Virus record (IMG/VR): IMGVR_UViG_3300042883_000475
Location: 1 to 28,324 of that record
Source of the DNA: a virus
DNA length: 28,324 nt
Reading direction: 5' to 3' (one strand)
The notes under the pieces were generated by a model, which saw only the letters and a list, made by a program, of their open reading frames with translations, searched no databases and was not told the DNA's origin. Position 1 is the stretch's first letter, and each line of letters starts with the position of its first letter. A program made the position numbers and the translations under genes. Shown piece after piece: positions 52 through 28,324 of this stretch.

Positions 52-3000
52 ATGAGTACAAATAAATTAATAAATGGTTCATTATCAGCAAATACACTTA
101 ATTTAAGAACTATAGGTGCGACTGCTTCAATAACTAATTTAGGTATTGATTCTAATGGTAATGTGGTATCTGGTTTAACTGGTGGTGGTAGTAGTGGTCC
201 TATATCAGTGGTTAATACTTCTTCTTTATTTTCAACTGGATTAGCTAATACTGGTATAAATGCAAGTGGTGTTACATATTCAATATTTTTTGGTGAGAAT
301 GCTGGTAATACCGCAAATAACTCATCAAGTTCAAATTTCTTAGGTAATAGTGCTGGTTATCAAGCGACCAATGCAGCTAATTCAAATTTTCTTGGTACCA
401 GTTCTGGTTATCAAGCTGTTGGTGCAACTAATTCAAATTTCTTAGGTCAAGGGGCTGGTTTTGCTGCTACTAATGCAAATAACTCTAATTTCTTTGGTTG
501 GAATGCTGGTGTTGTTGCAACTGGTGCACATCATTCTAATTTTTTAGGTTATCAAGCTGGTAATCAAGCAACTAATGCTTATTATTCCAATTTCATAGGC
601 GCTACTGCTGGTGAAAATGCGACTGCTGCGCGCCAATCTAATTTTATTGGTGTTAGCGCTGGTTTGAACGCTACTAACGCTGGTAGTTCAAATTTCATCG
701 GTCAAGGGGCTGGTGAAAATGCAATTGATGCATCTAATTCAAATTTCATAGGCGCTACTGCTGGTGGTAGTGCGACTAATGCTAGTAGTTCTAATTTCAT
801 TGGTGGTAATGCTGGTTATTTTGCAACTGATGCTTCTAATTCAACTTTCATTGGTGTTGCTGCTGGTCAAAACGCAACTAATGCACATCATTCAAATTTC
901 TTAGGTTATTATGCTGGTTATGAAGCAACTGTTTCTTACCAATCTAATTTCATTGGTTCACAAGCTGGTAAATACGCAAGTAATGCTAATGATTCAAATT
1001 TCATTGGTACTATTGCTGGTAGCGGTGCGACTTATGCTAGTTCTTCTAATTTCATTGGTAATTATGCTGGTTATAAAGCAACTAATGCTAGTGCTTCTAA
1101 CTTCATGGGTAATTATGCTGGTACTAATGCAACTGGAGCTAGTGCTTCAAATTTCTTTGGTCAATCGGCTGGTAGTTCTGCTAGTAACGCTTATCAATCA
1201 AATTTCATTGGTGGTAGTGCTGGTGAGTTAGCAACTAACGCTTATCAATCTAATTTCTTAGGTTATTATGCTGGTAATGCCGCAAGTGATAGTTATCTAT
1301 CAAATTTCATCGGTAATAGTGCTGGTCAAAGTGCAACTAATGCATCTAATTCAAATTTCATTGGTAATAGTACTGGCTATCAAGCTGATAACGCTAATTA
1401 TTCTAATTTCATCGGTTATAGTGCTGGTTATCAAGCAACTAACGCTGGTAGTGCAAATTTCATTGGTACACAATCTGGGTATCAAGCAAGTGGCGCATCT
1501 TATTCAAATTTCATTGGTAGTGGGTCTGGTGGGTATGCAACTAATGCTTACCAATCTAATTTCATTGGTAATTATGCTGGTGCTAATGCAACTGATGCTT
1601 ATAATTCAAATTTCATTGGCGGTAGTGCTGGTCAAGGTGCTAGTAACGCTTATAATTCAAATTTCTTTGGTTTATACGCTGGTTTTAGTGCAACATACGC
1701 AAATTATTCAAATATATTTGGTTATTTTGCTGGTCAAGATGCAGCTAATGCGAATAACTCAAATTTCATTGGTTATTATGCTGGTTATAAAGCAACTTAT
1801 GCTGCTCAATCTAATTTTATTGGTAATAATGCTGGTAGTGGCGCTACTAATGCTTATAATGCAAATTTCATCGGTACTAATTCTGGTGCTTACGCAACTG
1901 GAGCTACTAGTTCAAATTTCTTTGGTGCTGGTGCTGGTCAAGGAGCAACTAATGCATCATCTTCTAATTTCATTGGTGTTAGTGCTGGTTTGAACGCAAC
2001 TGGTGCATATGAGTCAAATTTCATTGGTAGTCAAGCTGGTGCTGGTGCAATAAATGCTTATCGTTCAACTTTTTCTGGTTATCGAACTGGTGTTGGCGCT
2101 ACTAATGCTAGACATTCTAATTTCTTTGGTAGTCTTGCTGGTGTTAATGCAACTAATTCATCTTACTCTAACTTTTTAGGTTATCAAGCTGGTCAACTAG
2201 CAAGTGGTGCAACTAATTCAAATTTCTTTGGTAAAAATACTGGTTGGAGGGCAGCTAATGCAAGTAATTCAACTTTCTCTGGTCAATATGCTGGTTATGA
2301 TGCAACTAACGCATCAGGGTCAAATTTCATTGGTAATTATGCTGGTTGGAATGCAACTAACGCTAATAATTCCAATTTCTTTGGTTTTAATGCTGGTTTT
2401 CAATCAACTGGTGCAGCTGGTTCAAATTTCATTGGTTCTCAAGCTGGTTATGTAGCAGCTAGTGCTACTAACTCAAATTTTATGGGTACTAATTCTGGTT
2501 ATTTTTCAACATATGCCAATGATTCAAATTTCTTTGGTTATCAAGCTGGTAATCGTGCGACTAGTGCTAGTACTTCTAATTTCTTAGGTTATCAAGCTGG
2601 TAGTGGTGCTACTAACGCAACTAACTCTAACTTCATAGGTAATAATACTGCTAAAGGTGCAACTGGTGCACGTGATTCAAATTTCATGGGTGTTCAAGCT
2701 GGTGATAGTGCAAGTGGTGCGTATGGTTCAAATTTCTTTGGTTTTCAAACTGGTTCTTATGCGACTAATGCTAGTAATTCAAATTTCATAGGTACATCTG
2801 CTGGATATCAGGCGACTAATGCAACATTGGCAAATTTCATTGGTGCTGGTGCTGGTCAAGGTTCGACTGACGCAATTTATTCAAATTTCATTGGTTATAA
2901 CGCTGGTGCTTATGCATATAGTGCTACTAACTCTAATTTCATTGGTGATGGTTCTGGGGGTGGGGCAACTGATGCAAAATATTCAAATTTCCTTGGTTAT

Positions 3001-3432
3001 CGAGCTGGTAATAATGCAGATAGCGCATCTTATTCTAATTTAATTGGATTTAACGCTGGTAAAAGTTTTATCAGTAATTATATAGGTTCAAATAATATTA
3101 TTATTGGTACTAATGTAACTTTACTAAGTGGAGCTACTAATAGTATTAATATAGGTGGGGTATTATTTGGAAGCGGAACTTATTCAGCAATAACTGGTAA
3201 TCCATCTAAACTTGCAGTATCAACTGGTAAAATAGGTATAGGTGTAATTTCTCCAACTGAAAAACTAGACGTTGGGGGTGCTATTAAAATAGCGTCAAAT
3301 AGTTATACTAGTTTAACTAATGGTGCTACAACCCCAGTACCAAATGGTGGGGCTGGTACTATGGTATTTGATACTGTTAACTTACATTTCTTTGGTTGGA
3401 ATGGAACTTCTTGGAGACAATTAGATAACTAA
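52..3432 (+). CDS. Giant tail fibre / adhesin with a 17-residue repeat array
   Basis: Predicted 1126-residue fibre, probably a trimeric host-binding appendage. Residues 1-76 form a head that shares the TNLGxDxNGxVVSGxTGG module with the fibre gene at 15577. Residues 77-994 are 54 consecutive 17-residue units, consensus SNF(I/F/L)GxxAGxxATNAxx, followed by a partial unit at 995. The array has no Cys or Pro and few charged residues, which suits a repetitive beta-roll or beta-solenoid. Its IG/AG/A rhythm recalls YadA-type head repeats (inference). The C-terminus (about 1040-1126) has asparagine- and glycine-rich IIIG/INIG strands, a KIGIGxxSPTEKLDVxG segment and a final FxGWNGTSW motif, all common in phage fibre tips. 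The ATG follows an A-rich leader without Shine-Dalgarno. A strong hairpin terminator lies 15 bases after the stop. Fibre assignment is firm; the receptor is unknown. Confidence 0.85.
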   Translation: MSTNKLINGSLSANTLNLRTIGATASITNLGIDSNGNVVSGLTGGGSSGPISVVNTSSLFSTGLANTGINASGVTYSIFFGENAGNTANNSSSSNFLGNSAGYQATNAANSNFLGTSSGYQAVGATNSNFLGQGAGFAATNANNSNFFGWNAGVVATGAHHSNFLGYQAGNQATNAYYSNFIGATAGENATAARQSNFIGVSAGLNATNAGSSNFIGQGAGENAIDASNSNFIGATAGGSATNASSSNFIGGNAGYFATDASNSTFIGVAAGQNATNAHHSNFLGYYAGYEATVSYQSNFIGSQAGKYASNANDSNFIGTIAGSGATYASSSNFIGNYAGYKATNASASNFMGNYAGTNATGASASNFFGQSAGSSASNAYQSNFIGGSAGELATNAYQSNFLGYYAGNAASDSYLSNFIGNSAGQSATNASNSNFIGNSTGYQADNANYSNFIGYSAGYQATNAGSANFIGTQSGYQASGASYSNFIGSGSGGYATNAYQSNFIGNYAGANATDAYNSNFIGGSAGQGASNAYNSNFFGLYAGFSATYANYSNIFGYFAGQDAANANNSNFIGYYAGYKATYAAQSNFIGNNAGSGATNAYNANFIGTNSGAYATGATSSNFFGAGAGQGATNASSSNFIGVSAGLNATGAYESNFIGSQAGAGAINAYRSTFSGYRTGVGATNARHSNFFGSLAGVNATNSSYSNFLGYQAGQLASGATNSNFFGKNTGWRAANASNSTFSGQYAGYDATNASGSNFIGNYAGWNATNANNSNFFGFNAGFQSTGAAGSNFIGSQAGYVAASATNSNFMGTNSGYFSTYANDSNFFGYQAGNRATSASTSNFLGYQAGSGATNATNSNFIGNNTAKGATGARDSNFMGVQAGDSASGAYGSNFFGFQTGSYATNASNSNFIGTSAGYQATNATLANFIGAGAGQGSTDAIYSNFIGYNAGAYAYSATNSNFIGDGSGGGATDAKYSNFLGYRAGNNADSASYSNLIGFNAGKSFISNYIGSNNIIIGTNVTLLSGATNSINIGGVLFGSGTYSAITGNPSKLAVSTGKIGIGVISPTEKLDVGGAIKIASNSYTSLTNGATTPVPNGGAGTMVFDTVNLHFFGWNGTSWRQLDN
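280..3033 (+). repeat. 54 tandem 51-bp units (17 codons each)
   Basis: The first unit begins at codon 77 (base 280) and the 55th, partial unit begins at codon 995 (base 3034). The distance is 2754 bases, exactly 54 x 51, so the array has kept period without one insertion or deletion. Framework positions (S1 N2 F3 G5 A8 G9 A12 T13 A15) are conserved. Positions 6-7, 10-11 and 16-17 vary in nearly every unit, as expected for exposed residues. DNA identity between units is partial, so the array is diversified rather than freshly amplified. Confidence 0.9.
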
Positions 3433-8497: not shown

Positions 8498-8761
8498 TTA
8501 ACCAATAATTCTTTTAATTATATCGTAAGCTTCTTCAAGAGTTTCAAATGATTTATCTGGGATTAGTATACTATTATTAGCTACAATAACTGGTATTCGC
8601 TCAGATTGTGCCACATTGAATACTTTAAAGACTTCATCTTGATTATCTGGTAAGTCGATATCAACATATCTATATTCAACATTATTTTTTTCTAGGATTT
8701 CTTTCATTTCTTTACAATATGAACATCCTTCCATTCCAAAAACTCTTACATTATTTTTCAT
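8498..8761 (-). CDS. Glutaredoxin (CSYC dithiol)
   Basis: 87 residues, the usual size of a phage glutaredoxin. The first strand RVFGMEG is followed by the redox site C13-S-Y-C16 at the start of a helix. A second strand YRYVDIDLP follows, then the conserved cis-proline region R55-I-P57-V-I, and a C-terminal ETLEEAYDIIKRI helix. This is a complete thioredoxin fold with both active-site cysteines. In phages such proteins usually reduce ribonucleotide reductase to support nucleotide supply; no reductase is visible here, so the partner is inferred. Its ATG lies inside the end of the helicase gene (11-base overlap, ATGAAAAATAA), so the two are almost surely translated from one mRNA. The family call is secure. 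Confidence 0.9.
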   Translation of the reverse strand: MKNNVRVFGMEGCSYCKEMKEILEKNNVEYRYVDIDLPDNQDEVFKVFNVAQSERIPVIVANNSILIPDKSFETLEEAYDIIKRIIG

Positions 8762-11720
8762 CTTCTTCTAATATTTCATTAACCATTATATCAATTATTT
8801 CATTATCGGATAATTTATTACCACCGATAATCTTATTAATTATTTCTTTTTTATAATTTAATGTATGCCACATTTTAGTTATAATTGTATCGTTAAATAA
8901 GTTATAATATATTTTCACATTATTTTTTTGACCAATTCTGAAACATCGAAATTCTGATTGTTCCGAGTTGCCAGGTACCCAATCAAATGAATTAAATACA
9001 ACATAGTGTGCCCTAGTTAAAGTGATACCAACGCCAGCTGATATAATATTACCAATAAATACCATTGGACCATCTTCTCTATTTTGAAATTCATCTACTG
9101 AACGTTGTTTTTCTTTATCACTAAGTTGGCCATAATGCACAACACATTTATTACCATAATGATTAGCTAATGCTAGTAATTCTTCAGTAAAACATGTGAA
9201 TATAACTACTTTATTACCTTGTTCAATAATCTCATCAACTAATTCAATTGTATGTGGAATAGTTTCCATAGCCATATACTTTCTCAATAAGCCTAACTCA
9301 ACTAAATCTCTTTGGATATTAACAGTTTTTTTATTATTCTCTCTTTCAATCAAATAATCTTCCCATAACTGTTCATATTGTTTCTTCTGCTCTTTGGTTA
9401 AATCATTTATTAATGGTGTTACCGTTCTGTCTGGCATATCAACAAAATCCTCAGTTAATCGTCTTAAAAATATATTTCTAGTTTTAATCGATAACTCTTC
9501 AAGATTAGAAGCTCCATTCGTTAACCATACCTTCTTTTTAAAACCATTTTTTAACGTAGTGGTAATTTGTCTACCCTCACAGTATCTAGTAGCAAAATAC
9601 TTCCAATTTTCAGTTAATGGTGATTTAATCAATTTCAACAAATTAAAATAATCCATTGGTCTATTTGCAACTGGTGTACCACTCAATAACCATACTTTAT
9701 CAATAGTCTTGCATATGTCACTCATAATAGCCCCACGTTTACTATCTTTATTCTTTAAGTTATGTGCTTCATCGATAATACATAAATCAAATTTAGAATC
9801 TAATAAATGTTGGTTTTCAATTAAATGATATTTTTCTTTATTAGTTTCAGTTTTAATAGTATGGAAGTTTTTAAGAATATCATAATTAATAATTGTAAAT
9901 TTAGCATCTTTCCATTCTTTACCATTAATAATAGCTATATCAAATTCTTGATAATAATTAATTTCTCTTTGCCAATTTATTTTAACTGATGATGGACAAA
10001 CTATTAATATTTTTTTAGCTCCAGATTCTAACGCAGCGACAGTAGCTTGGAGCGTATTATGTGTTACTATACCATGTTCCATAACATATAATTTATCTGG
10101 AGCGTCAACTGATATACAAACAGTTTCAGCTTGACCACATGGTTCTATATTTTTAATGTATCTACCTACTTTATATTTTTTAGGTGTGTAATAAATATCA
10201 GCTTTTCGTTTTAACCTAAAAGGGTTAAATTGTTCTGGCATCTTAATATTTAATCTATAAGCTCTTTTACATTCAACAATAGTACCATCTTCTTTTTTAT
10301 ATTTTCCAATTTTACTACTTTTTCTAACTATACCACCTAAAGAATGTACTATCTCTGCAACATCATTAGCTAATCTTTCTGATACTGTACAATATTCAGT
10401 TCCAGTAAACCCATTATTTTTTGATTTACAACAATGTCCATCAGTATCCATTAACCCTTGTAATATTGCGAGTCTATTTTCAATACTAGAATATTTATAA
10501 ATATCTGGGATAAATTTAGTATCTGAACGAGTATTTTCTAACTTTAATTCTTTTAAATCATTACTATGGTAATTAATGTGCGCTATTCGTTTATTATCAG
10601 AAGATTTATACTCAGTTAATAATACATTTTGAAATAATTCATCAAAGTCATCTTTATGTAATTGTATAATAATAGCAGATGATTTAGTAAAATGACCATC
10701 ACCCAAAGATAATCCTAATAAATAAGGTTCAATAGGTAACACATCATTATTTTCAAAATGAATAGGACTAACAATCGGTATTTGCCATTTGTTATTACCG
10801 TTTGGTTCCTTATAATAAGTTTTAAATTTGTAAGGTCTTTTTTCATTCCAACCAGTACCTTTTTGTTTTAATACTAGATTTTCATCCAACATTTGTTCGG
10901 TACTTATAGTAACATAACGATTTTCTCTATTTTTAGAATTTTCACCAGAGTTATTAGTCGATACTGTCCATAAATGAGAACCGTCAGTTACTATATTATA
11001 ACCATCATTAAATGTTATTTTATATATGTCTTTAACACCTTGTGGAAATACACCAGTTATATTACATGGTTTACCATTTGAACCTATAATTCTATCACCT
11101 ACTTTTAAATCACCAAAACATTTAAGTCCATTAGGTGTTATAGCTAGCGCTGTAGTGATAATCCCTTTACCAGCGCCCATTTCGTCAGCTAGAATGGCTC
11201 CATTCTTAGTTAGAAGGAATTTAATACCATCTTTTTGTAAATCCAATACTTTCCTTCCAACTGTACCATTCATGTTCTTAAATTTATCTAATTTTTCATA
11301 TTTATCAAAATCAACTTCAATATTAATTTCTTCAAAGTATGGGTCATCTAATACTTGTGTTTTAGGTAAGAAATACATTTCAGATTTCTCTTGATTTCTT
11401 TTTAATTTACCATAAACATGAAATGTTTTATCTGAATCAGCTAATATATATTCAATTAAAATTTTCTCAGGTACAAATGTAAGTTTTTCTTGTTTTTTTA
11501 ATTCTTCACCTAAATATTCAGTAATAGCCACAATTTTATTAATTAAAATTGGTTCTTTTTTATGATTATCTATTATGTAATTACTTTGTGTATCGGTAAG
11601 ATTAATTTTACCAACTTTAATTAATTTTTTCTTTAATAGTTTAATATAAGGATTTTTACCATCATACTCTTTAAGTATTGTGATTGCTGAATATCCCTTT
11701 ATATCGTTTAAGTTTATCAA
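8751..11720 (-). CDS. SNF2-family DEAH helicase/ATPase precursor interrupted by an intein
   Basis: 989-residue precursor; 619 residues after removal of the intein (186-555). Extein motifs: Walker A ADEMGAGK (178-185) rejoined to TLQA (556 on), Ia LIVCPSSVKINW, II IIDEAH (D650-H653), III LLSGTP (678-682), then in the second RecA-like lobe VVIFTCFTEE, VHYGQLSDKEK, SAGVGITLT (894-902) and motif VI QSEFRCFRIGQ (921-931). This is the Swi2/Snf2 (SMARCAL1-like) set, consistent with a DNA-remodelling or annealing ATPase in phage replication or recombination. The N-terminal 150 residues are charged and unassigned. There is no ATG before residue 115, so the start shown is TTG; an ATT lies immediately before it. 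It heads the minus-strand operon with glutaredoxin. ATPase activity should depend on splicing, because the intein splits the phosphate-binding loop. Confidence 0.9.
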   Translation of the reverse strand: MINLNDIKGYSAITILKEYDGKNPYIKLLKKKLIKVGKINLTDTQSNYIIDNHKKEPILINKIVAITEYLGEELKKQEKLTFVPEKILIEYILADSDKTFHVYGKLKRNQEKSEMYFLPKTQVLDDPYFEEINIEVDFDKYEKLDKFKNMNGTVGRKVLDLQKDGIKFLLTKNGAILADEMGAGKGIITTALAITPNGLKCFGDLKVGDRIIGSNGKPCNITGVFPQGVKDIYKITFNDGYNIVTDGSHLWTVSTNNSGENSKNRENRYVTISTEQMLDENLVLKQKGTGWNEKRPYKFKTYYKEPNGNNKWQIPIVSPIHFENNDVLPIEPYLLGLSLGDGHFTKSSAIIIQLHKDDFDELFQNVLLTEYKSSDNKRIAHINYHSNDLKELKLENTRSDTKFIPDIYKYSSIENRLAILQGLMDTDGHCCKSKNNGFTGTEYCTVSERLANDVAEIVHSLGGIVRKSSKIGKYKKEDGTIVECKRAYRLNIKMPEQFNPFRLKRKADIYYTPKKYKVGRYIKNIEPCGQAETVCISVDAPDKLYVMEHGIVTHNTLQATVAALESGAKKILIVCPSSVKINWQREINYYQEFDIAIINGKEWKDAKFTIINYDILKNFHTIKTETNKEKYHLIENQHLLDSKFDLCIIDEAHNLKNKDSKRGAIMSDICKTIDKVWLLSGTPVANRPMDYFNLLKLIKSPLTENWKYFATRYCEGRQITTTLKNGFKKKVWLTNGASNLEELSIKTRNIFLRRLTEDFVDMPDRTVTPLINDLTKEQKKQYEQLWEDYLIERENNKKTVNIQRDLVELGLLRKYMAMETIPHTIELVDEIIEQGNKVVIFTCFTEELLALANHYGNKCVVHYGQLSDKEKQRSVDEFQNREDGPMVFIGNIISAGVGITLTRAHYVVFNSFDWVPGNSEQSEFRCFRIGQKNNVKIYYNLFNDTIITKMWHTLNYKKEIINKIIGGNKLSDNEIIDIMVNEILEEDEK
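10056..11165 (-). mobile_element. Intein with LAGLIDADG endonuclease; class 3-type splicing residues, Gly at position 1
   Basis: Precursor residues 186-555 (370 residues). Removing them restores GAGK-TLQA, so the N-junction is K185/G186 and the C-junction is N555/T556. Hint features: block A GIITTALAITPNG, then GDLKVGDRIIG; block B ending SHLW (H249, W251); block F TVCISV (C535); block G GIVTHN (T553, H554, N555) with T556 at +1. Position 1 is Gly instead of Cys or Ser. Trp in block B, Cys in block F and Thr in block G match the noncontiguous WCT triplet of class 3 inteins, where the block F cysteine replaces residue 1 as first nucleophile. Two LAGLIDADG-type motifs, LLGLSLGDG (334-342) and LQGLMDTDG (420-428), keep acidic residues, so the homing endonuclease may be active. 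Host-gene target: the P-loop codons. Confidence 0.88.
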
Positions 11721-20443: not shown

Positions 20444-23323
20444 ATGCCAAACAAAGTATTTGTGAGCCCTGGGGTTTACACATCAGAAAAGGACTTATCA
20501 TTTGTAACTAAATCAGTTGGAGTAACAACATTAGGTTTAGTTGGTGAAACTACAAAAGGTCCAGCATTTCAACCTATCTTCGTACAAGATTATGGTGAAT
20601 TCACCTCATTTTTTGGTGGATTAAATGCGTCAAAAAATAAAGATACTGGTGCTCCTAAATATGAGTTACCATATGTAGCTAAATCTTATTTAACACAAAC
20701 AAATCAACTGTTTGTAACTAGAGTTCTAGGTTTAAGTGGATATGATGCTGGTCGTTCATGGGCTATAACATTAGAAGCTAATATTAACCCTACTACAATC
20801 GTTAACACTAACGCTGGTATTACTAACGCTAATTTATTTAGTTTTACAGCTGATTCAAATTATAATATTATTGCATTAACATCAAGTGATGCGTTAATCC
20901 AAACATTATATGATAATGGATTATTGGATTCTCAATTCGTTACAATACCAACTAAAAATGTTGGTTCGTTAGTTAGTACACCTATTATTTATAATAAATC
21001 TGGTGTAACATTTAGTGGTGCTCAAATTAGTAATTTCTATTTAACATCTATTGGTCCTATGAGTGGTGGTTTTACTACTGGTTCAACAAGTGGTGTTACA
21101 GCTTATTATGCTGGGACAAGTTATACTGAAGTTGAGGATAAAGTTGTTGCTTTATTAAAAAGTAGAGCTTCTTACGATGGTAATGAAAATTTAACATTTG
21201 AAATTACTGGTGGTACATGTCCAATTGCGATTAGTACAGATTTAGCTGATAATGATGCAGCTTCTGACCCTAAAGGTAATTTTGCATTAACTGGTACTTC
21301 TAGTAATTCAGGTAAATTTAGATATGATGTATCATTTGATAAAACTAAAAATAATTACATCACTAAAGTATTAGGTAGAAATGCACAAGATGGTAAAACT
21401 GCTGTATATGTTGAAGAGATGTTCTCTGAAATGTTTAATGATTATTATAATGTTGACCCAGCTAAGAGTAAAATTAGAGGTATTAACTTATCTTTAGTTG
21501 ATTATTCTACTAAATTCGCTAAGTATAAACAAATTTATCAGCCAGCAGTTACTCCATGGGTTGTTTCTGAATTACGTGGTTCGAATTTATTTAGATTATT
21601 TAGATTTTGGACAATTTCTGATGGTGATACCGCTAATAAATTATTTAAAATATCTATTACTAACATTAAACCAGATGATAAAGAATTTGATTTAGAAGTT
21701 AGAAATTTTTATGATTCTGATTCTAACAAAGGTGTATATGAAAAATATACTAAATTAAGTATGGATGTTGTTTCTAACAATTATATTGGTAAAAGGATTG
21801 GTACATTAAATGGTGATTTCGCTTCTAAATCTAATTATATATTAGTAGAAATGGATGAAGGTACTAACATATCAGATGCATTCCCAGCTGGATTCGTAGG
21901 TTACCCAGTTAGAGATTATGCGGATACACAACTTGGTACAGCTATTGCTCCATCTATTAGTTATAGTACCCAATATTATCCAGTTACTGGTACACAAAAA
22001 AGAAAAGTTTATCAAGGATTATCTGATTTAAAAGGTATTGAAGAAGATTTCTTTACTTATAAAGGTATTCCAGATAGCGCATCACTTAATCAATGGACTG
22101 GTTTAACAAAAGGTTTTCATATGGATATTCACGCTACTGGTGCAACGATTGATAATGTTAAAATATTGGTTTCTGGTACACCAACTACTGGTCTTTATCA
22201 TTATCCAATATTTGAATTTGAAACTGGTATTTCTGAATTTAGAACTGAAGCTGGTGTTCAAGGTGGTGAATATCAAGAAGTATTTGCTCGTAAATTTACA
22301 TTTGCACCATATGGTGGATTTGACGGTTGGGATGTATATAGAACTAGTAGAACTAATAATGATAAATTTATAGCAAGCGGTATAAAAGGTGTTTTAGGTA
22401 AAACTAAAGGTAACTTTAATGCAATCGCATTATCTAATGGTGATTCTGGTATAAATTCAGATTATTACGCATACTTAGAAGCTATCTGGTCATTTAGAAA
22501 TCCTGAAGCTGTTAATATTAACGTATTTGCTACACCTGGTATTGATTTATTTACTAATAGTAACTTAGTTGAAGCTACAATTGAAATGATTGAAACTGAT
22601 AGAGCGGATTCATTATATATCGCTAACTTACCTGATATAGACGCAGCTGGTGATGTTATGTCTCCACAAGATGTTGCTGATACTTTAGATGATTCATTTG
22701 ATAGTAATTATACTGCAACTTATTGGCCTTGGATTCAAGTAAATGATACAGAAAATAATGTATACGTTTATATGCCACCAACAAGAGATGTTGTAAGAAA
22801 CATAGCTTTAACTGATAATCAAGCATATCCATGGTACGCTGTAGCTGGTGTTAATAGAGGTAATGTAGATTGTATCAAAGCTAGAGTTAAATTAACTCAA
22901 GAAGATAGAGATATACTTTATGAAGCAAGAATTAACCCAATAACAACTTTTGCATCTGATGGTGTTAAAATTTGGGGAAATAAAACGCTTCAAGTTAAAG
23001 ATACAGCTCTTAATAGAATTAACGTTAGACGTTTATTATTACAAGCTAGAAAACTTATTTCTGCTGTTTCTATTAGATTATTATTTGAACAAAACGATTC
23101 AGTTGTTAGAAATCAATTCTTAACTCTTGTTAATCCAATCTTGGATAACATCAGAGCTAATAGAGGTTTAACTGACTTTAGAGTTGTTCTTGATGATACT
23201 CCAGAATCAATTGATAGAGGTGAATTAGTAGGAAGAATATTCTTAAAACCTACTAGGGCACTAGAGTTTATCACGCTAGAATTTAATATTATGAATACTG
23301 GTGCTAGTTTTGATAATATCTAA
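20444..23323 (+). CDS. Tail sheath protein 1 (T4 gp18-like)
   Basis: 959 residues; T4 gp18 has 659. N-terminal sheath signature: FVSPGVYTSE (6-15), then TLGLVGETTKGPAFQP and a YGEFTSFFGG strand. The C-terminal third carries the conserved sheath core: TYWPWIQVND (about 757-766), VYMPPTRDVV, YPWYAVAGVNRGNV, INPITTF, VKIWGNKTL (about 842-850), RINVRRLLLQARK, then NPILDNIRANRGLTDFRVV and a final strand pair ending LEFNIMNT. The extra 300 residues are mid-protein surface domains (about 130-450), common in large phages. It polymerises around the tail tube and contracts on infection. It has its own promoter-like element and ends at tandem terminators. Assignment is secure. Confidence 0.93.
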   Translation: MPNKVFVSPGVYTSEKDLSFVTKSVGVTTLGLVGETTKGPAFQPIFVQDYGEFTSFFGGLNASKNKDTGAPKYELPYVAKSYLTQTNQLFVTRVLGLSGYDAGRSWAITLEANINPTTIVNTNAGITNANLFSFTADSNYNIIALTSSDALIQTLYDNGLLDSQFVTIPTKNVGSLVSTPIIYNKSGVTFSGAQISNFYLTSIGPMSGGFTTGSTSGVTAYYAGTSYTEVEDKVVALLKSRASYDGNENLTFEITGGTCPIAISTDLADNDAASDPKGNFALTGTSSNSGKFRYDVSFDKTKNNYITKVLGRNAQDGKTAVYVEEMFSEMFNDYYNVDPAKSKIRGINLSLVDYSTKFAKYKQIYQPAVTPWVVSELRGSNLFRLFRFWTISDGDTANKLFKISITNIKPDDKEFDLEVRNFYDSDSNKGVYEKYTKLSMDVVSNNYIGKRIGTLNGDFASKSNYILVEMDEGTNISDAFPAGFVGYPVRDYADTQLGTAIAPSISYSTQYYPVTGTQKRKVYQGLSDLKGIEEDFFTYKGIPDSASLNQWTGLTKGFHMDIHATGATIDNVKILVSGTPTTGLYHYPIFEFETGISEFRTEAGVQGGEYQEVFARKFTFAPYGGFDGWDVYRTSRTNNDKFIASGIKGVLGKTKGNFNAIALSNGDSGINSDYYAYLEAIWSFRNPEAVNINVFATPGIDLFTNSNLVEATIEMIETDRADSLYIANLPDIDAAGDVMSPQDVADTLDDSFDSNYTATYWPWIQVNDTENNVYVYMPPTRDVVRNIALTDNQAYPWYAVAGVNRGNVDCIKARVKLTQEDRDILYEARINPITTFASDGVKIWGNKTLQVKDTALNRINVRRLLLQARKLISAVSIRLLFEQNDSVVRNQFLTLVNPILDNIRANRGLTDFRVVLDDTPESIDRGELVGRIFLKPTRALEFITLEFNIMNTGASFDNI

Positions 23324-23369: not shown

Positions 23370-23396
23370 AACCCTTAGCTTAAAGAACTAAGGGTT
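23370..23396. terminator. Terminator hairpin 2, overlapping the endonuclease stop codon
   Basis: A perfect 9-bp stem, AACCCTTAG with CTAAGGGTT, has a 9-base loop and is followed on the plus strand by TTTTTTTATAT. The TTA at 23375-23377, the endonuclease stop on the minus strand, lies inside the left arm, so the last codons of that gene form the hairpin. Confidence 0.8.
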
Positions 23397-25183
23397 TTTT
23401 TATATACTAAAGTTCCACAATCATATATTCTATATATTCCTCTATTTTTCATTATTTCATGTTCAGTCGTATTTGAATCGTAACCTTCCTTAACTAATAT
23501 TGATTTTCTATAAGCGAATCTATGTTTTCTATTGTTGTTAATAATATACCAATAATTAGGTGCTGATGTTTTAGTATTTGTAAATTCTAATTGTTTGTAT
23601 AAATTACCTTGACTCCATCTTCTATCAGCGTAACTAATTATTTCCTTTGGTTGGTACACTTTAATGAAATATTTAAGTAATTTACTGGCACCACCAATCA
23701 CGTTATAATTCAATTTATTACAAAATCTAACTAATTCATATTGATTAGAATTACCGCCCATAGCTATTCTACCTTTCCCAAATGTCATTAAAGAAACTAA
23801 TTCATCATTATAATATAACCCTAAATTAATAGATGATGCAACAGTCCCTTGTATATGATTATTATCTAAAAATAATTTCTTATCCCTTGTATTAACATCT
23901 TTAATAATACATTTTCTACCAAATATTTTATTTTCAGTTATCCCTAATATATTTTTTAACCTTGATTTAACTATATCTTTTTTATATAACCACTCATCTT
24001 CAAATATATGAATTAATTGAATTCCCTTAGATTCACATTGGTCTGTTTTATTTAAATGATAATTTGATGGTTTGAATAATTCATTGTGCCAATATAACCC
24101 ATCAAATTCAATTGCAATATTATGTGAAGGGATATATATATCTAGCTCTAACGGTGTTATAATATTTTTACTATTTTCAATAATTTCTATATTTAATGAT
24201 TTAATAAAACTTTTAACTTCGTCTTCTGATTTATTATATTTTAAACCACATTTTGGACATCCAGACCCTTGTAAATGTGTGTCTGGTAATTGTTCAAATT
24301 CACCATGTTCTGGACATGATATTTTAATATGTTTTTTACAATTAAGATAATTAACATTTGAATAATTATATTTATTATCATGTATTAAATTAGCGTTTAA
24401 TATAAATTCACCAGATGTTTTTGTTTTTTTAGTACTTATCGTTAAACCTTTACATTTAGGGCATCCAGACCCTTGTAAATGTGTATTAATATTTTGTTTA
24501 AAATTACCATGTATAGGACAAGTTATTTCAATAAAATCAATAGATTTAGTTGATGTAATTAATGAATATTCATATTTATTATCATGGATTGAATTAAATT
24601 TAATTATTAAATCAGATATATTTTTATCTCTACCAACACATTTAGGACAACCATGACCTTTTTTATGTGTATTTAACGTTTGTTTAAATTCACCATGTTC
24701 TGGACAGATAATAGTTATTTTATTGATTGGGTTTACGTAATTAACTAATGAATAATCATATTTACCATTATGTATTATTTTTAATTGATTTATTATATCA
24801 TCATTATCTTTATCTCTGCCAATACATTTTGGACAATTCGAACCGTTAATGTGTACACTAGCTCTTTGATTAAACTCACCATGTTCTGAACATAATATCA
24901 TTATATTAGTGTTCATATTAACATATTTAACTAAAGAATAATCATATCTGTTATTATGAATTTCATTACATTTAATGATGAAGTCATTTTCATTTATTTT
25001 ATATGTTTTTGAACATTTAGGACATCCTTGTTGTCTATTAATATGTTTATCTGGTGTTTGTTCAAATTCACCATGTTCTGAACATATTATAGTTACTTTA
25101 GTTTTATTATTAATATAATTAACTAAAGAATAATCATATGTATTATTATGAACTAGTTTACATTTATTTAAAAAATTTTCCAT
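23375..25183 (-). CDS. Free-standing homing endonuclease, Vsr-like nuclease with five zinc-type modules
   Basis: 602 residues. Residues 1-315 are five tandem modules of about 62 residues, each with F/LxxKxxxxHxxxYDYSLVxY, a CxEHGxF segment and a CPKC pair (C54/C57, C117/C120, C179/C182, C241/C244, C309/C312); these match the DUF723-like repeats found in phage homing endonucleases and probably bind zinc and DNA. Residues 320-410 are a Vsr/PD-(D/E)xK-like core: LELDIYIPSHNIAIEFDG (D348, E359, D361), W365-H366 and FEDEW (394-398), related to the I-Bth0305I group. The C-terminal 180 residues (DNNHIQG, GLYYNDELVSLMTFG, IISYADRRW) are a further domain often fused to these enzymes. The gene lies between two sheath paralogues on the opposite strand, typical of an intergenic selfish gene. 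Promoter is host-like with almost no leader. Confidence 0.85.
   Translation of the reverse strand: MENFLNKCKLVHNNTYDYSLVNYINNKTKVTIICSEHGEFEQTPDKHINRQQGCPKCSKTYKINENDFIIKCNEIHNNRYDYSLVKYVNMNTNIMILCSEHGEFNQRASVHINGSNCPKCIGRDKDNDDIINQLKIIHNGKYDYSLVNYVNPINKITIICPEHGEFKQTLNTHKKGHGCPKCVGRDKNISDLIIKFNSIHDNKYEYSLITSTKSIDFIEITCPIHGNFKQNINTHLQGSGCPKCKGLTISTKKTKTSGEFILNANLIHDNKYNYSNVNYLNCKKHIKISCPEHGEFEQLPDTHLQGSGCPKCGLKYNKSEDEVKSFIKSLNIEIIENSKNIITPLELDIYIPSHNIAIEFDGLYWHNELFKPSNYHLNKTDQCESKGIQLIHIFEDEWLYKKDIVKSRLKNILGITENKIFGRKCIIKDVNTRDKKLFLDNNHIQGTVASSINLGLYYNDELVSLMTFGKGRIAMGGNSNQYELVRFCNKLNYNVIGGASKLLKYFIKVYQPKEIISYADRRWSQGNLYKQLEFTNTKTSAPNYWYIINNNRKHRFAYRKSILVKEGYDSNTTEHEIMKNRGIYRIYDCGTLVYKKTLSSLS
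24239..25183 (-). repeat. Five tandem zinc-type modules within the homing endonuclease
   Basis: The CPKC pairs are spaced 63, 62, 62 and 68 residues apart. Every module keeps a Cys-x-x-His-Gly before the CPKC pair, giving three or four likely metal ligands per module. The DNA copies have diverged enough that they are recognised mainly at protein level. Confidence 0.8.
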
Positions 25184-25359: not shown

Positions 25360-28324
25360 ATGGGAAATAATATAACAGTTGCACCATGGATTTATTACAC
25401 ATCACAAGCGCCTAATGTAGTTGGTCAAGTAATTGCACCAATAACCGAAAAAACTAGACTTGGTTTAGTTGGTGAAACGTTAATTGGTCCAGCATTTCAA
25501 CCAACATTGGTTAAAAATTATAATGAATTTACTAATTTATTTGGTATGCCAAGCTCAACTGTAGATGGTATAACTAATTTTCCTAGATACGAATTACCTT
25601 ATATAGCTAAATTATTTTTAAATGAATCTAAAGCGTTATTTGTAACTAGAGTCCTAGGTTTAAGTGGATATGATGCTGGTTATTCATGGGCTATAACATT
25701 GGAATCTAATTATGATGGTAAAACTGTAGTCCCTACAGTTACTGGTGGTACATATCCAATATTATTTAGTTTTACAGCTGATTCACAAGATGTTATAACT
25801 AATTTAGTATCAAATGATTCATTATTACAAACATTATGGGATAATAATTTATTAACTACTAGTCTTAATAATTTAAATAGTTCGATAGTAATTCCAACTA
25901 ATAATAGTTATACTGCTGGTACATTAAATAATGTTACTAATGTATTATTAAAATTTGGTTCAATTTATAGTGGTTTAAGTATCACTAATTTTTATTTAAA
26001 TAATTATGATGGTTATGGGGTGGGTGCATCTGGTACTACAAGTGGTATGACAGTTTATCAGTCTGGAAATACTTATACTGGTGTTGATGACCAAGTAGTT
26101 GCTTTATTAAAAAGTAGAGCTAATTATGGTGCTAATGAAATTTTAAATTTTAGACTTAGTGGTGGTACAACTTCGTTGGGATTTAATACAACATTAACAG
26201 CGGCAACTATTAATATATTTAGTGATTTTGAATTAACTTGGACAGATTCTGGTAATGTAACTGGTTCAACTAAAGTCAATTTTGACAATGCAAGTCCTAA
26301 CTATATTGGTAGTATTTTAGGTAGAAATAATGATGATAGAACTACACCAATGTATCTTGAGGAAGTGTATGATAATATTATTAGAGTTTTAGATAATGAT
26401 ACTAAAATAAAAGGTATAAAATTATCGTTAGTTAATTATAGTGATAAATTTAATAATTATAAAGATAAATTTAAACCTTCAGTAACACCATGGATAGTTT
26501 CACAAATAAAAGGTTCTAATATAAGTAAATTATTTAGAGCATGGACTAAAGGTGATGGAAAATATACAACTAATTTATTAAAAATAACTATATCAAATAT
26601 TAAATTAGCTAATAGTCAACATCTTGATTATGATGTAAACAAACCAGATGACTATGATGATTATAAATTTGATTTAAGTGTTAGACCGATAGATAACCCA
26701 GATACAAATTTTACCCCATTTACTGATGAAGTATTTAAAAATTGTTCAATGAATCCTAAATCTAAAACTTATATTGGTAAAATGATTGGAACTAAAAATG
26801 GTGATTACCAATCTAATTCTAACTATATATTGATTGAAGTTAATGAGAATGATGAAAACATAATACAATCATTTCCAGCTGGATATTTAGGTTACCCAAT
26901 TAGAGATTATGAAACAACCACTAGTGGGGTAGCATTACCACCATATAACATGTATAAAACAATATATGAACCTACTGATATTATTAATAATAATTTTTTA
27001 GGGTTAAGTGATGCGACTGGGTATGATAAAAGTATGTTTACGTATAAAGGATTACCAAATAGTAATACAATTACAGATTGGACTGGTTTAACAAAAGGTT
27101 TTCATATGGATATTGATGCTACTGGTGCAACAATTGATACTGATAAAATAAGTGTTGATGGTGTAAATTATTTTCAACCTATTAATGAATTTGAAGTAGG
27201 TAATGCAAATTTTGATGATGAACAAAATGTTGCTAATACTCAATATGAAAAATTAAATTATCGTAAATTTACTTTAATGCCATACGGTGGGTTTGATGGT
27301 TGGGATGTTTATAGAAAAGGTAGAACTAATTCAAATAATTATACTTTAAACGGTGATAAAGGTATATTAGGTGAATTAAGTGATAATTTTAATAAAATAA
27401 CATTAACCAATAATAGTGTTGGGTTGACTTCAGACTATTATGCGTTTTTAGAAGGTATATGGACATTTAAAAATACTGATTTTATTGATATTAATTTATT
27501 TGCAACACCTGGTTTGGACACAATGAATCATAATGATTTGGTAGAAGCGGCAATTGATATGATTGAATTTGATAGAGCTGATTCATTATATATTGTCACA
27601 ACACCTGATGTAGATTCTGATGATAGAATATTAAATACTCAAGATGTCGTTAATCTTTTAGAAGATAAATACGATACAACATATGCAGCAACTTACTTAC
27701 CATGGACTAAAATAAAAATTAATGGTGAGATTTGGTTACCACCTACAGCGTCAGTTGTATCTAATATGGCTAAATATGATAAAAGTACGAATACTTTATG
27801 GTATGCAACTGCTGGAGTCGAAAGAGGGGATATTAATGTAATGGATATTAGAAAAGATATTTTAGGAAAATATTTAAGTAAATTGGATGTTAATTATTTA
27901 TATAATAATAGGATTAACCCATTAATAAAAGTAGATGTATATCAACAAACACCAACATATACTGGGTTTAAAATATGGGGTAATAAAACATTATCAACTA
28001 CTAACTATTTAACTAATAGAGTAAATGTAAGACGTTTATTATTGGAAATAAGGTATTTAATGATTAAAGCGTGTAGAGATTTTTTATTTAACCCTAATGA
28101 TACTAAAACTCAAAGAGATATTGAAAATAAATTAAACCCAATATTGGATAGTATAAAAAATAATCGCGGTATATCTCAATTTAAATTAAAATTTGATACA
28201 ACTCCAGAATTTTTAGATAAAGGTCAACTTAATGGTAAAATATTTATTAAACCAATTAACGCATTAGAATATATAGTGTTTGAATTTTCAATTATACCAA
28301 ATGATAGTAATTTAAATATGATAT
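25360..28324 (+). CDS. Tail sheath protein 2, paralogue of sheath 1 (runs off the right edge)
   Basis: 988 codons are open to the last complete codon of the window with no stop. The final visible residues (NDSNLNMI) align with the end of sheath 1 (TGASFDNI), so the stop should be the next codon or nearly so. The same order of segments is present: LGLVGETLIGPAFQP, FVTRVLGLSGYDAGYSWAI, TPWIVSQIKGSN, FPAGYLGYPIRDY, WTGLTKGFHMDIDATGATID, YGGFDGWDVY, FKIWGNKTL and NRVNVRRLLLEIR. The N-terminal SPGVY of ordinary sheaths is replaced by APWIYYTSQ, in the arm that usually links neighbouring subunits. It may be a minor or specialised sheath ring, an alternative sheath, or a duplicate in decay, although the intact frame argues against decay. 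Confidence 0.88.
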   Translation, partial: MGNNITVAPWIYYTSQAPNVVGQVIAPITEKTRLGLVGETLIGPAFQPTLVKNYNEFTNLFGMPSSTVDGITNFPRYELPYIAKLFLNESKALFVTRVLGLSGYDAGYSWAITLESNYDGKTVVPTVTGGTYPILFSFTADSQDVITNLVSNDSLLQTLWDNNLLTTSLNNLNSSIVIPTNNSYTAGTLNNVTNVLLKFGSIYSGLSITNFYLNNYDGYGVGASGTTSGMTVYQSGNTYTGVDDQVVALLKSRANYGANEILNFRLSGGTTSLGFNTTLTAATINIFSDFELTWTDSGNVTGSTKVNFDNASPNYIGSILGRNNDDRTTPMYLEEVYDNIIRVLDNDTKIKGIKLSLVNYSDKFNNYKDKFKPSVTPWIVSQIKGSNISKLFRAWTKGDGKYTTNLLKITISNIKLANSQHLDYDVNKPDDYDDYKFDLSVRPIDNPDTNFTPFTDEVFKNCSMNPKSKTYIGKMIGTKNGDYQSNSNYILIEVNENDENIIQSFPAGYLGYPIRDYETTTSGVALPPYNMYKTIYEPTDIINNNFLGLSDATGYDKSMFTYKGLPNSNTITDWTGLTKGFHMDIDATGATIDTDKISVDGVNYFQPINEFEVGNANFDDEQNVANTQYEKLNYRKFTLMPYGGFDGWDVYRKGRTNSNNYTLNGDKGILGELSDNFNKITLTNNSVGLTSDYYAFLEGIWTFKNTDFIDINLFATPGLDTMNHNDLVEAAIDMIEFDRADSLYIVTTPDVDSDDRILNTQDVVNLLEDKYDTTYAATYLPWTKIKINGEIWLPPTASVVSNMAKYDKSTNTLWYATAGVERGDINVMDIRKDILGKYLSKLDVNYLYNNRINPLIKVDVYQQTPTYTGFKIWGNKTLSTTNYLTNRVNVRRLLLEIRYLMIKACRDFLFNPNDTKTQRDIENKLNPILDSIKNNRGISQFKLKFDTTPEFLDKGQLNGKIFIKPINALEYIVFEFSIIPNDSNLNMI

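Follow-up and report, generated by a model that had tools for sequence, protein, structure and literature searches.

The DNA analyzed here (the window, 28,324 nucleotides) almost certainly encodes a class 3 intein that is full length, includes a LAGLIDADG homing endonuclease and interrupts the Walker A motif of a phage SNF2 helicase between its Lys and Thr. At the level of sequence, class 3 splicing combined with LAGLIDADG homing is well supported by the insertion point, the signature residues, the predicted fold, the selection that keeps them and the evidence for horizontal movement. From these features the window intein would be expected both to splice and to cut DNA.

The host gene (8751-11720, minus strand, as are all features of this gene below) has a TTG start and encodes a 989-aa SNF2-family helicase precursor. 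Pfam searches with this ORF returned SNF2-rel_dom (1.2e-27), spanning the insert, and Helicase_C (2.7e-11), so that it carries both the SNF2 ATPase lobe and the Helicase_C domain of an SNF2 helicase. The N-extein (residues 1-185; 11166-11720) ends in the Walker A sequence ADEMGAGK, with GAGK at residues 182-185 (11166-11177) and the N-terminal splice junction after Lys185. The insert is in frame and comprises 370 codons (residues 186-555; 10056-11165), and it carries the class 3 signature and the LAGLIDADG endonuclease. The C-extein (residues 556-989; 8751-10055) begins TLQATV, and its first residue, Thr556 (10053-10055), would serve as the +1 nucleophile and, after splicing, as the Thr of Walker A. 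Because the window, although it is the entire virus record, is a 28-kb fragment, we can only infer an origin from a large phage, as the preliminary description had proposed, from relatives on contigs of up to about 310 kb.

Intein-free homologues, which the preliminary description had suggested seeking, are present and place the insertion between the P-loop Lys and Thr, as that description had it. At least three contigs (L082-L084), syntenic with the window and 81-88% identical to it in DNA on both flanks, carry an insert-free gene of 619 codons with about 89-90% extein identity to the window. The window DNA reads GCTGGTAAA, then 1110 bases, then ACGCTCCAA across the site, and the empty contigs read AGTGGTAAA directly followed by ACATTACAA, which encodes a continuous GSGK/TLQATV (here and below, a slash in a motif marks a splice junction or the corresponding empty site). 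Since these three genes run through the site uninterrupted, the insertion point is settled. Viral contigs were scanned with the spliced extein as the query, and dozens of further intein-free loci were found among the matches listed; empty genes are thus common among relatives, although these matches do not allow their frequency to be estimated. The Walker A +1 residue was Thr in all intein-bearing genes and Thr or Ser, in many cases Ser, in empty relatives. A phylogenetic pair test of Thr versus Ser at +1 against intein presence, in which the intein-bearing locus L158 was counted as empty, was not significant (median p 0.125).

Class 3 inteins are defined by residues at positions B:12, F:4 and G:5 (PMC3196547). 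In the window intein, residue 1 is Gly186 (11163-11165), which is not a nucleophile, and block B contributes His249 at position 10 (10974-10976) and Trp251 at position 12 (10968-10970). Position 4 of block F is Cys535 (10116-10118), the predicted initiating nucleophile, and Thr553-His554-Asn555 occupy positions 5-7 of block G (10056-10064), immediately before Thr556. The sequence matched solved structures of the class 3 inteins MchDnaB1 (6rix, 6riy) and Msm DnaBi1 (6bs8) and of gp41-1. The counterparts of Trp251 and Cys535 are W67 and C124 in 6rix, and W65 and C107 in 6riz, while Thr553-His554-Asn555 corresponds to T143-H144-N145 of 6rix; the alignment of blocks F and G is short, weak when taken alone (about 2-7 bits), and depends on the conserved pattern. 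The residue numbers and block positions given in the preliminary description for W251, C535 and T553 were therefore correct by alignment with 6rix, 6riy, 6bs8 and 6riz, and the translation bears out its Gly at residue 1 and its Thr at +1.

The top sequence match was 6riz, a gp41-1 intein carrying C1A, F65W and D107C (gp41-1_WCT), in which the grafted F65W and D107C are the residues that align with W251 and C535. A profile of the window intein family scored this graft higher than wild-type gp41-1 (63.7 versus 55.9 bits). Among the solved structures gp41-1 matches the Hint part best in sequence, but it is itself class 1: its F:4 residue is Asp and its B:12 residue is Phe. A DxxH motif in block B has been reported for class 3 (PMC6195587); TDGSH of the window intein fits it, but that Asp is missing in most alleles of the family. 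The NCBIfam intein_Cterm model TIGR01443, run on the window intein, gave no detection, and because it missed this element we regard it as an insensitive detector here.

The fold prediction, for which the input was an alignment of the window intein's own family alone, gave a model with a mean pLDDT of 83 and a pTM of 0.85. Its whole-fold match was PI-SceI (E 2e-17), and it matched the class 3 Hint domains 6riy, 6rix and 6bs8 locally at 1.1-1.8 Å over 68-71 columns. At both splice junctions pLDDT fell below 50, which places the active-site geometry outside the reach of the model. Between the Hint blocks lie two LAGLIDADG motifs, LLGLSLGDG (10695-10721) and LQGLMDTDG (10437-10463), both intact as first described. 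The Pfam searches also returned LAGLIDADG_3 (1.3e-6), which covers the second motif, and Hom_end. The two motifs with their invariant Asp residues, the LAGLIDADG_3 match and the PI-SceI fold together identify a putative LAGLIDADG homing endonuclease.

In the splicing pathway that we propose, Cys535, aided by His249, would attack the Lys185-Gly186 bond to form a branched thioester at block F. The N-extein would then be transferred to the side chain of Thr556, and cyclization of Asn555 followed by an acyl shift would yield GAGK-TLQA and restore the ATP site. Residue 1 would have no chemical role. It is reasonable to suppose that the unspliced precursor lacks ATPase activity, so that ATPase function would depend on splicing. 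The endonuclease would cleave SNF2 alleles that lack the intein, at the codons of the P-loop, and repair would copy the intein in together with a short flank.

To place the window intein within its family, we drew on 155 viral loci that encode relatives, of which 80 were kept; with the window this gave 81 loci. All 81 end in THN/T and have Thr at +1. A set of 42 non-redundant alleles at the Lys-Thr site was chosen by a pattern that required VTHN/T, and because that pattern already fixes the C-terminal end, the invariance of THN/T is taken from the 81 loci instead. His B:10 and Cys F:4 are conserved in all 42 alleles, as is the Asp of each LAGLIDADG motif, and 40 alleles have Trp at B:12. Given the invariant Cys and the near-invariant Trp, the W/C/T motif is not a chance triplet, and its register together with the family-wide Cys F:4 supports the class 3-type assignment made in the preliminary description. 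The other two alleles (L024 and L045) are natural Trp-to-Phe variants at B:12 that are otherwise intact class 3 alleles. Comparison of the window intein with its ten nearest relatives gave a dN/dS of about 0.12-0.25.

Residue 1, by contrast with these invariant positions, was Ala in 13 of the 42 alleles, Phe in eight, Gly in seven, Cys in six, Met in four, Leu in three and Ser in one. On a quick tree of 38 rows, built without bootstrap, it changed at least 16 times. The Cys and Ser alleles all retain Cys F:4. On balance, residue 1 seems to be near-neutral in this family, with the Cys1 and Ser1 alleles nested among those with Ala, Phe, Gly, Met or Leu as members of a lineage committed to class 3, and not as reversions to class 1. 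If this is true, the family is a natural mutagenesis series, and sorting inteins by a missing Cys1 would split one family.

The distribution of the intein points to homing and horizontal movement. On a 60-row extein tree of phage SNF2 genes, there were at least 17 changes between intein presence and absence, and the row nearest to the window was, among the matches listed, an empty gene (this tree was also quick and without bootstrap, and all of our trees cover only this Lys-Thr-site intein family and its host gene). The nearest inteins to that of the window, at about 75-81% identity, sit in exteins that are just 58-65% identical over 220 C-terminal residues; in L043, the extein is 81% identical to that of the window and the intein 62%. 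With groups picked after the trees were seen, AU tests rejected the intein clade of the window, L012 and L017 on the extein data (p = 5e-8) and the pairing of the window with L043 on the intein data (p = 0.0098). The intein-bearing L029 and the empty L102 share about 95% DNA identity, and their differences cluster within 12 bases on each side of the junction, as expected for a short co-conversion tract. Mosaic inteins lie inside near-identical exteins in L008 and L017. The presence/absence changes, the tree conflict and the narrow footprint are all consistent with homing behavior.

This pattern bears on whether the intein is instead a regulatory switch, in which conditional splicing, for example redox-gated through Cys535, keeps the SNF2 ATPase off until needed. 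There is a precedent in the P-loop intein DnaBi1 of M. smegmatis, also of class 3, which is inhibited when its block F Cys forms a disulfide (PMC6195587), and the window intein has further cysteines, among them Cys529 near Cys535. Cys529 is missing in most alleles, however, and a redox trap through it was dropped for that reason. Intein-free alleles are common in close relatives, and the gain and loss of the intein resemble homing and not retained regulation, so we consider a regulatory role very unlikely. A class 2-like route, in which Thr556 would itself attack the N-terminal junction and Cys535 would have only an assisting role, is more improbable still. Class 1 chemistry cannot start from Gly1, and class 2 inteins likewise lack a nucleophile at residue 1, but in the known class 2 inteins, which are KlbA orthologues, the +1 residue is Cys, G:6 is Ser and F:4 is Asp (PMC4031507), whereas the window intein family has an SNF2 host, Thr+1, His G:6, the invariant Cys F:4 and Trp B:12. 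Equally improbable is a degenerate, non-splicing intein that leaves the helicase inactive, as in Arth_1007 of Arsp-FB24, the one class 3 pseudogene on record (PMC3196547), since Cys F:4 and His B:10 are missing there but intact in the window intein, as are its frame and both endonuclease motifs, and its dN/dS is low.

The preliminary description had called uncommon the combination of Gly1, Thr+1, P-loop site and SNF2 host in a large phage. That part of the description does not hold, because 1701 class 3 inteins were known in 2020, 82.5% of them with LAGLIDADG motifs (PMC7891396), Ser or Thr at +1 is a feature of the class (PMC5222942), the P-loop Lys-Thr insertion site has been termed "classic" (PMC5050341), and biochemical work exists on a class 3 Snf2 intein of Deinococcus radiodurans (Brace 2010, as cited in PMC7664689 and PMC5222942). 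Besides the 155 viral loci, 719 GenBank phage records contain relatives of the window intein, 687 of them covering at least 80%. The D. radiodurans intein resembles that of the window in its class 3 mechanism and SNF2-family host and differs in being bacterial; the likeness is to its description in the citing papers, and not to its sequence or exact insertion point. D. radiodurans was not among the species returned by our genome scan.

Other known systems share parts of the arrangement. The mycobacterial class 3 DnaB inteins (Msm DnaBi1, 6bs8; MchDnaB1, 6rix) have the same WCT register and Hint fold, and DnaBi1 is also inserted at Walker A, but they are mini-inteins without an endonuclease in a DnaB host, and DnaBi1 has Ser+1. 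Mycobacteriophage helicase inteins (Pinkcreek gp172 and Alice-type phages) combine a P-loop site (SGK/A...HN/S) and the class 3 signature in a phage helicase; they have about 33% intein identity to the window, another helicase as host and Ser+1. Class 3-type inteins in Hymenobacter montanus and the huge phage LR756508 (L089 and L092) lie in an SNF2 P-loop (GK/A...HN/T) and have H-x-W and the block F Cys; they are 34-36% identical to the window intein and have Ala at residue 1. Ten distant relatives, from six bacterial genome or MAG contigs and four phages, all have H-x-W in block B, the block F Cys and an HN/S or HN/T end; several interrupt a P-loop, and several have an SNF2 host gene.

Because such inserts are common in phages, the window intein is a good new example and not a new phenomenon, and the single element is otherwise ordinary. 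What it adds is a large, densely sampled class 3 allelic family from uncultured phages. This family varies at residue 1, includes mosaics and recent gains, and has intein-free partners that are very close to it. With it one can test whether residue 1 matters in class 3 and at what speed a P-loop intein homes between phages.

Further inteins occur in related genes. Six SNF2 ORFs of about 1340-1370 aa (L008, L011, L018, L022, L025 and L038) have a second intein in helicase motif VI, in the context EDR/C...HN/C[YF]RIGQ. This second intein is of class 1 type, with Cys1, a VYDLSV block F, a VHN/C end and Cys+1, so that class 3 and class 1 types stand side by side in one protein. The SNF2 ORF of L048 has, besides the class 3 intein in the P-loop, an extra insertion that starts with CFTYD and interrupts the DEAH box just behind its DE. 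The 162-kb contig of L059 (G005) contains three strong matches to the window intein profile at different genes. Elsewhere in the window, a 1126-aa protein (52-3432, plus strand) consists of many short SNFIG..AG..AT repeats and had no match in a Pfam search. A freestanding endonuclease gene (23375-25183, minus strand) with DUF4379/DUF723 zinc-finger repeats (PHROG HNH/homing endonuclease) is flanked by two tail-sheath-like genes (20444-23323 and 25360-28323).
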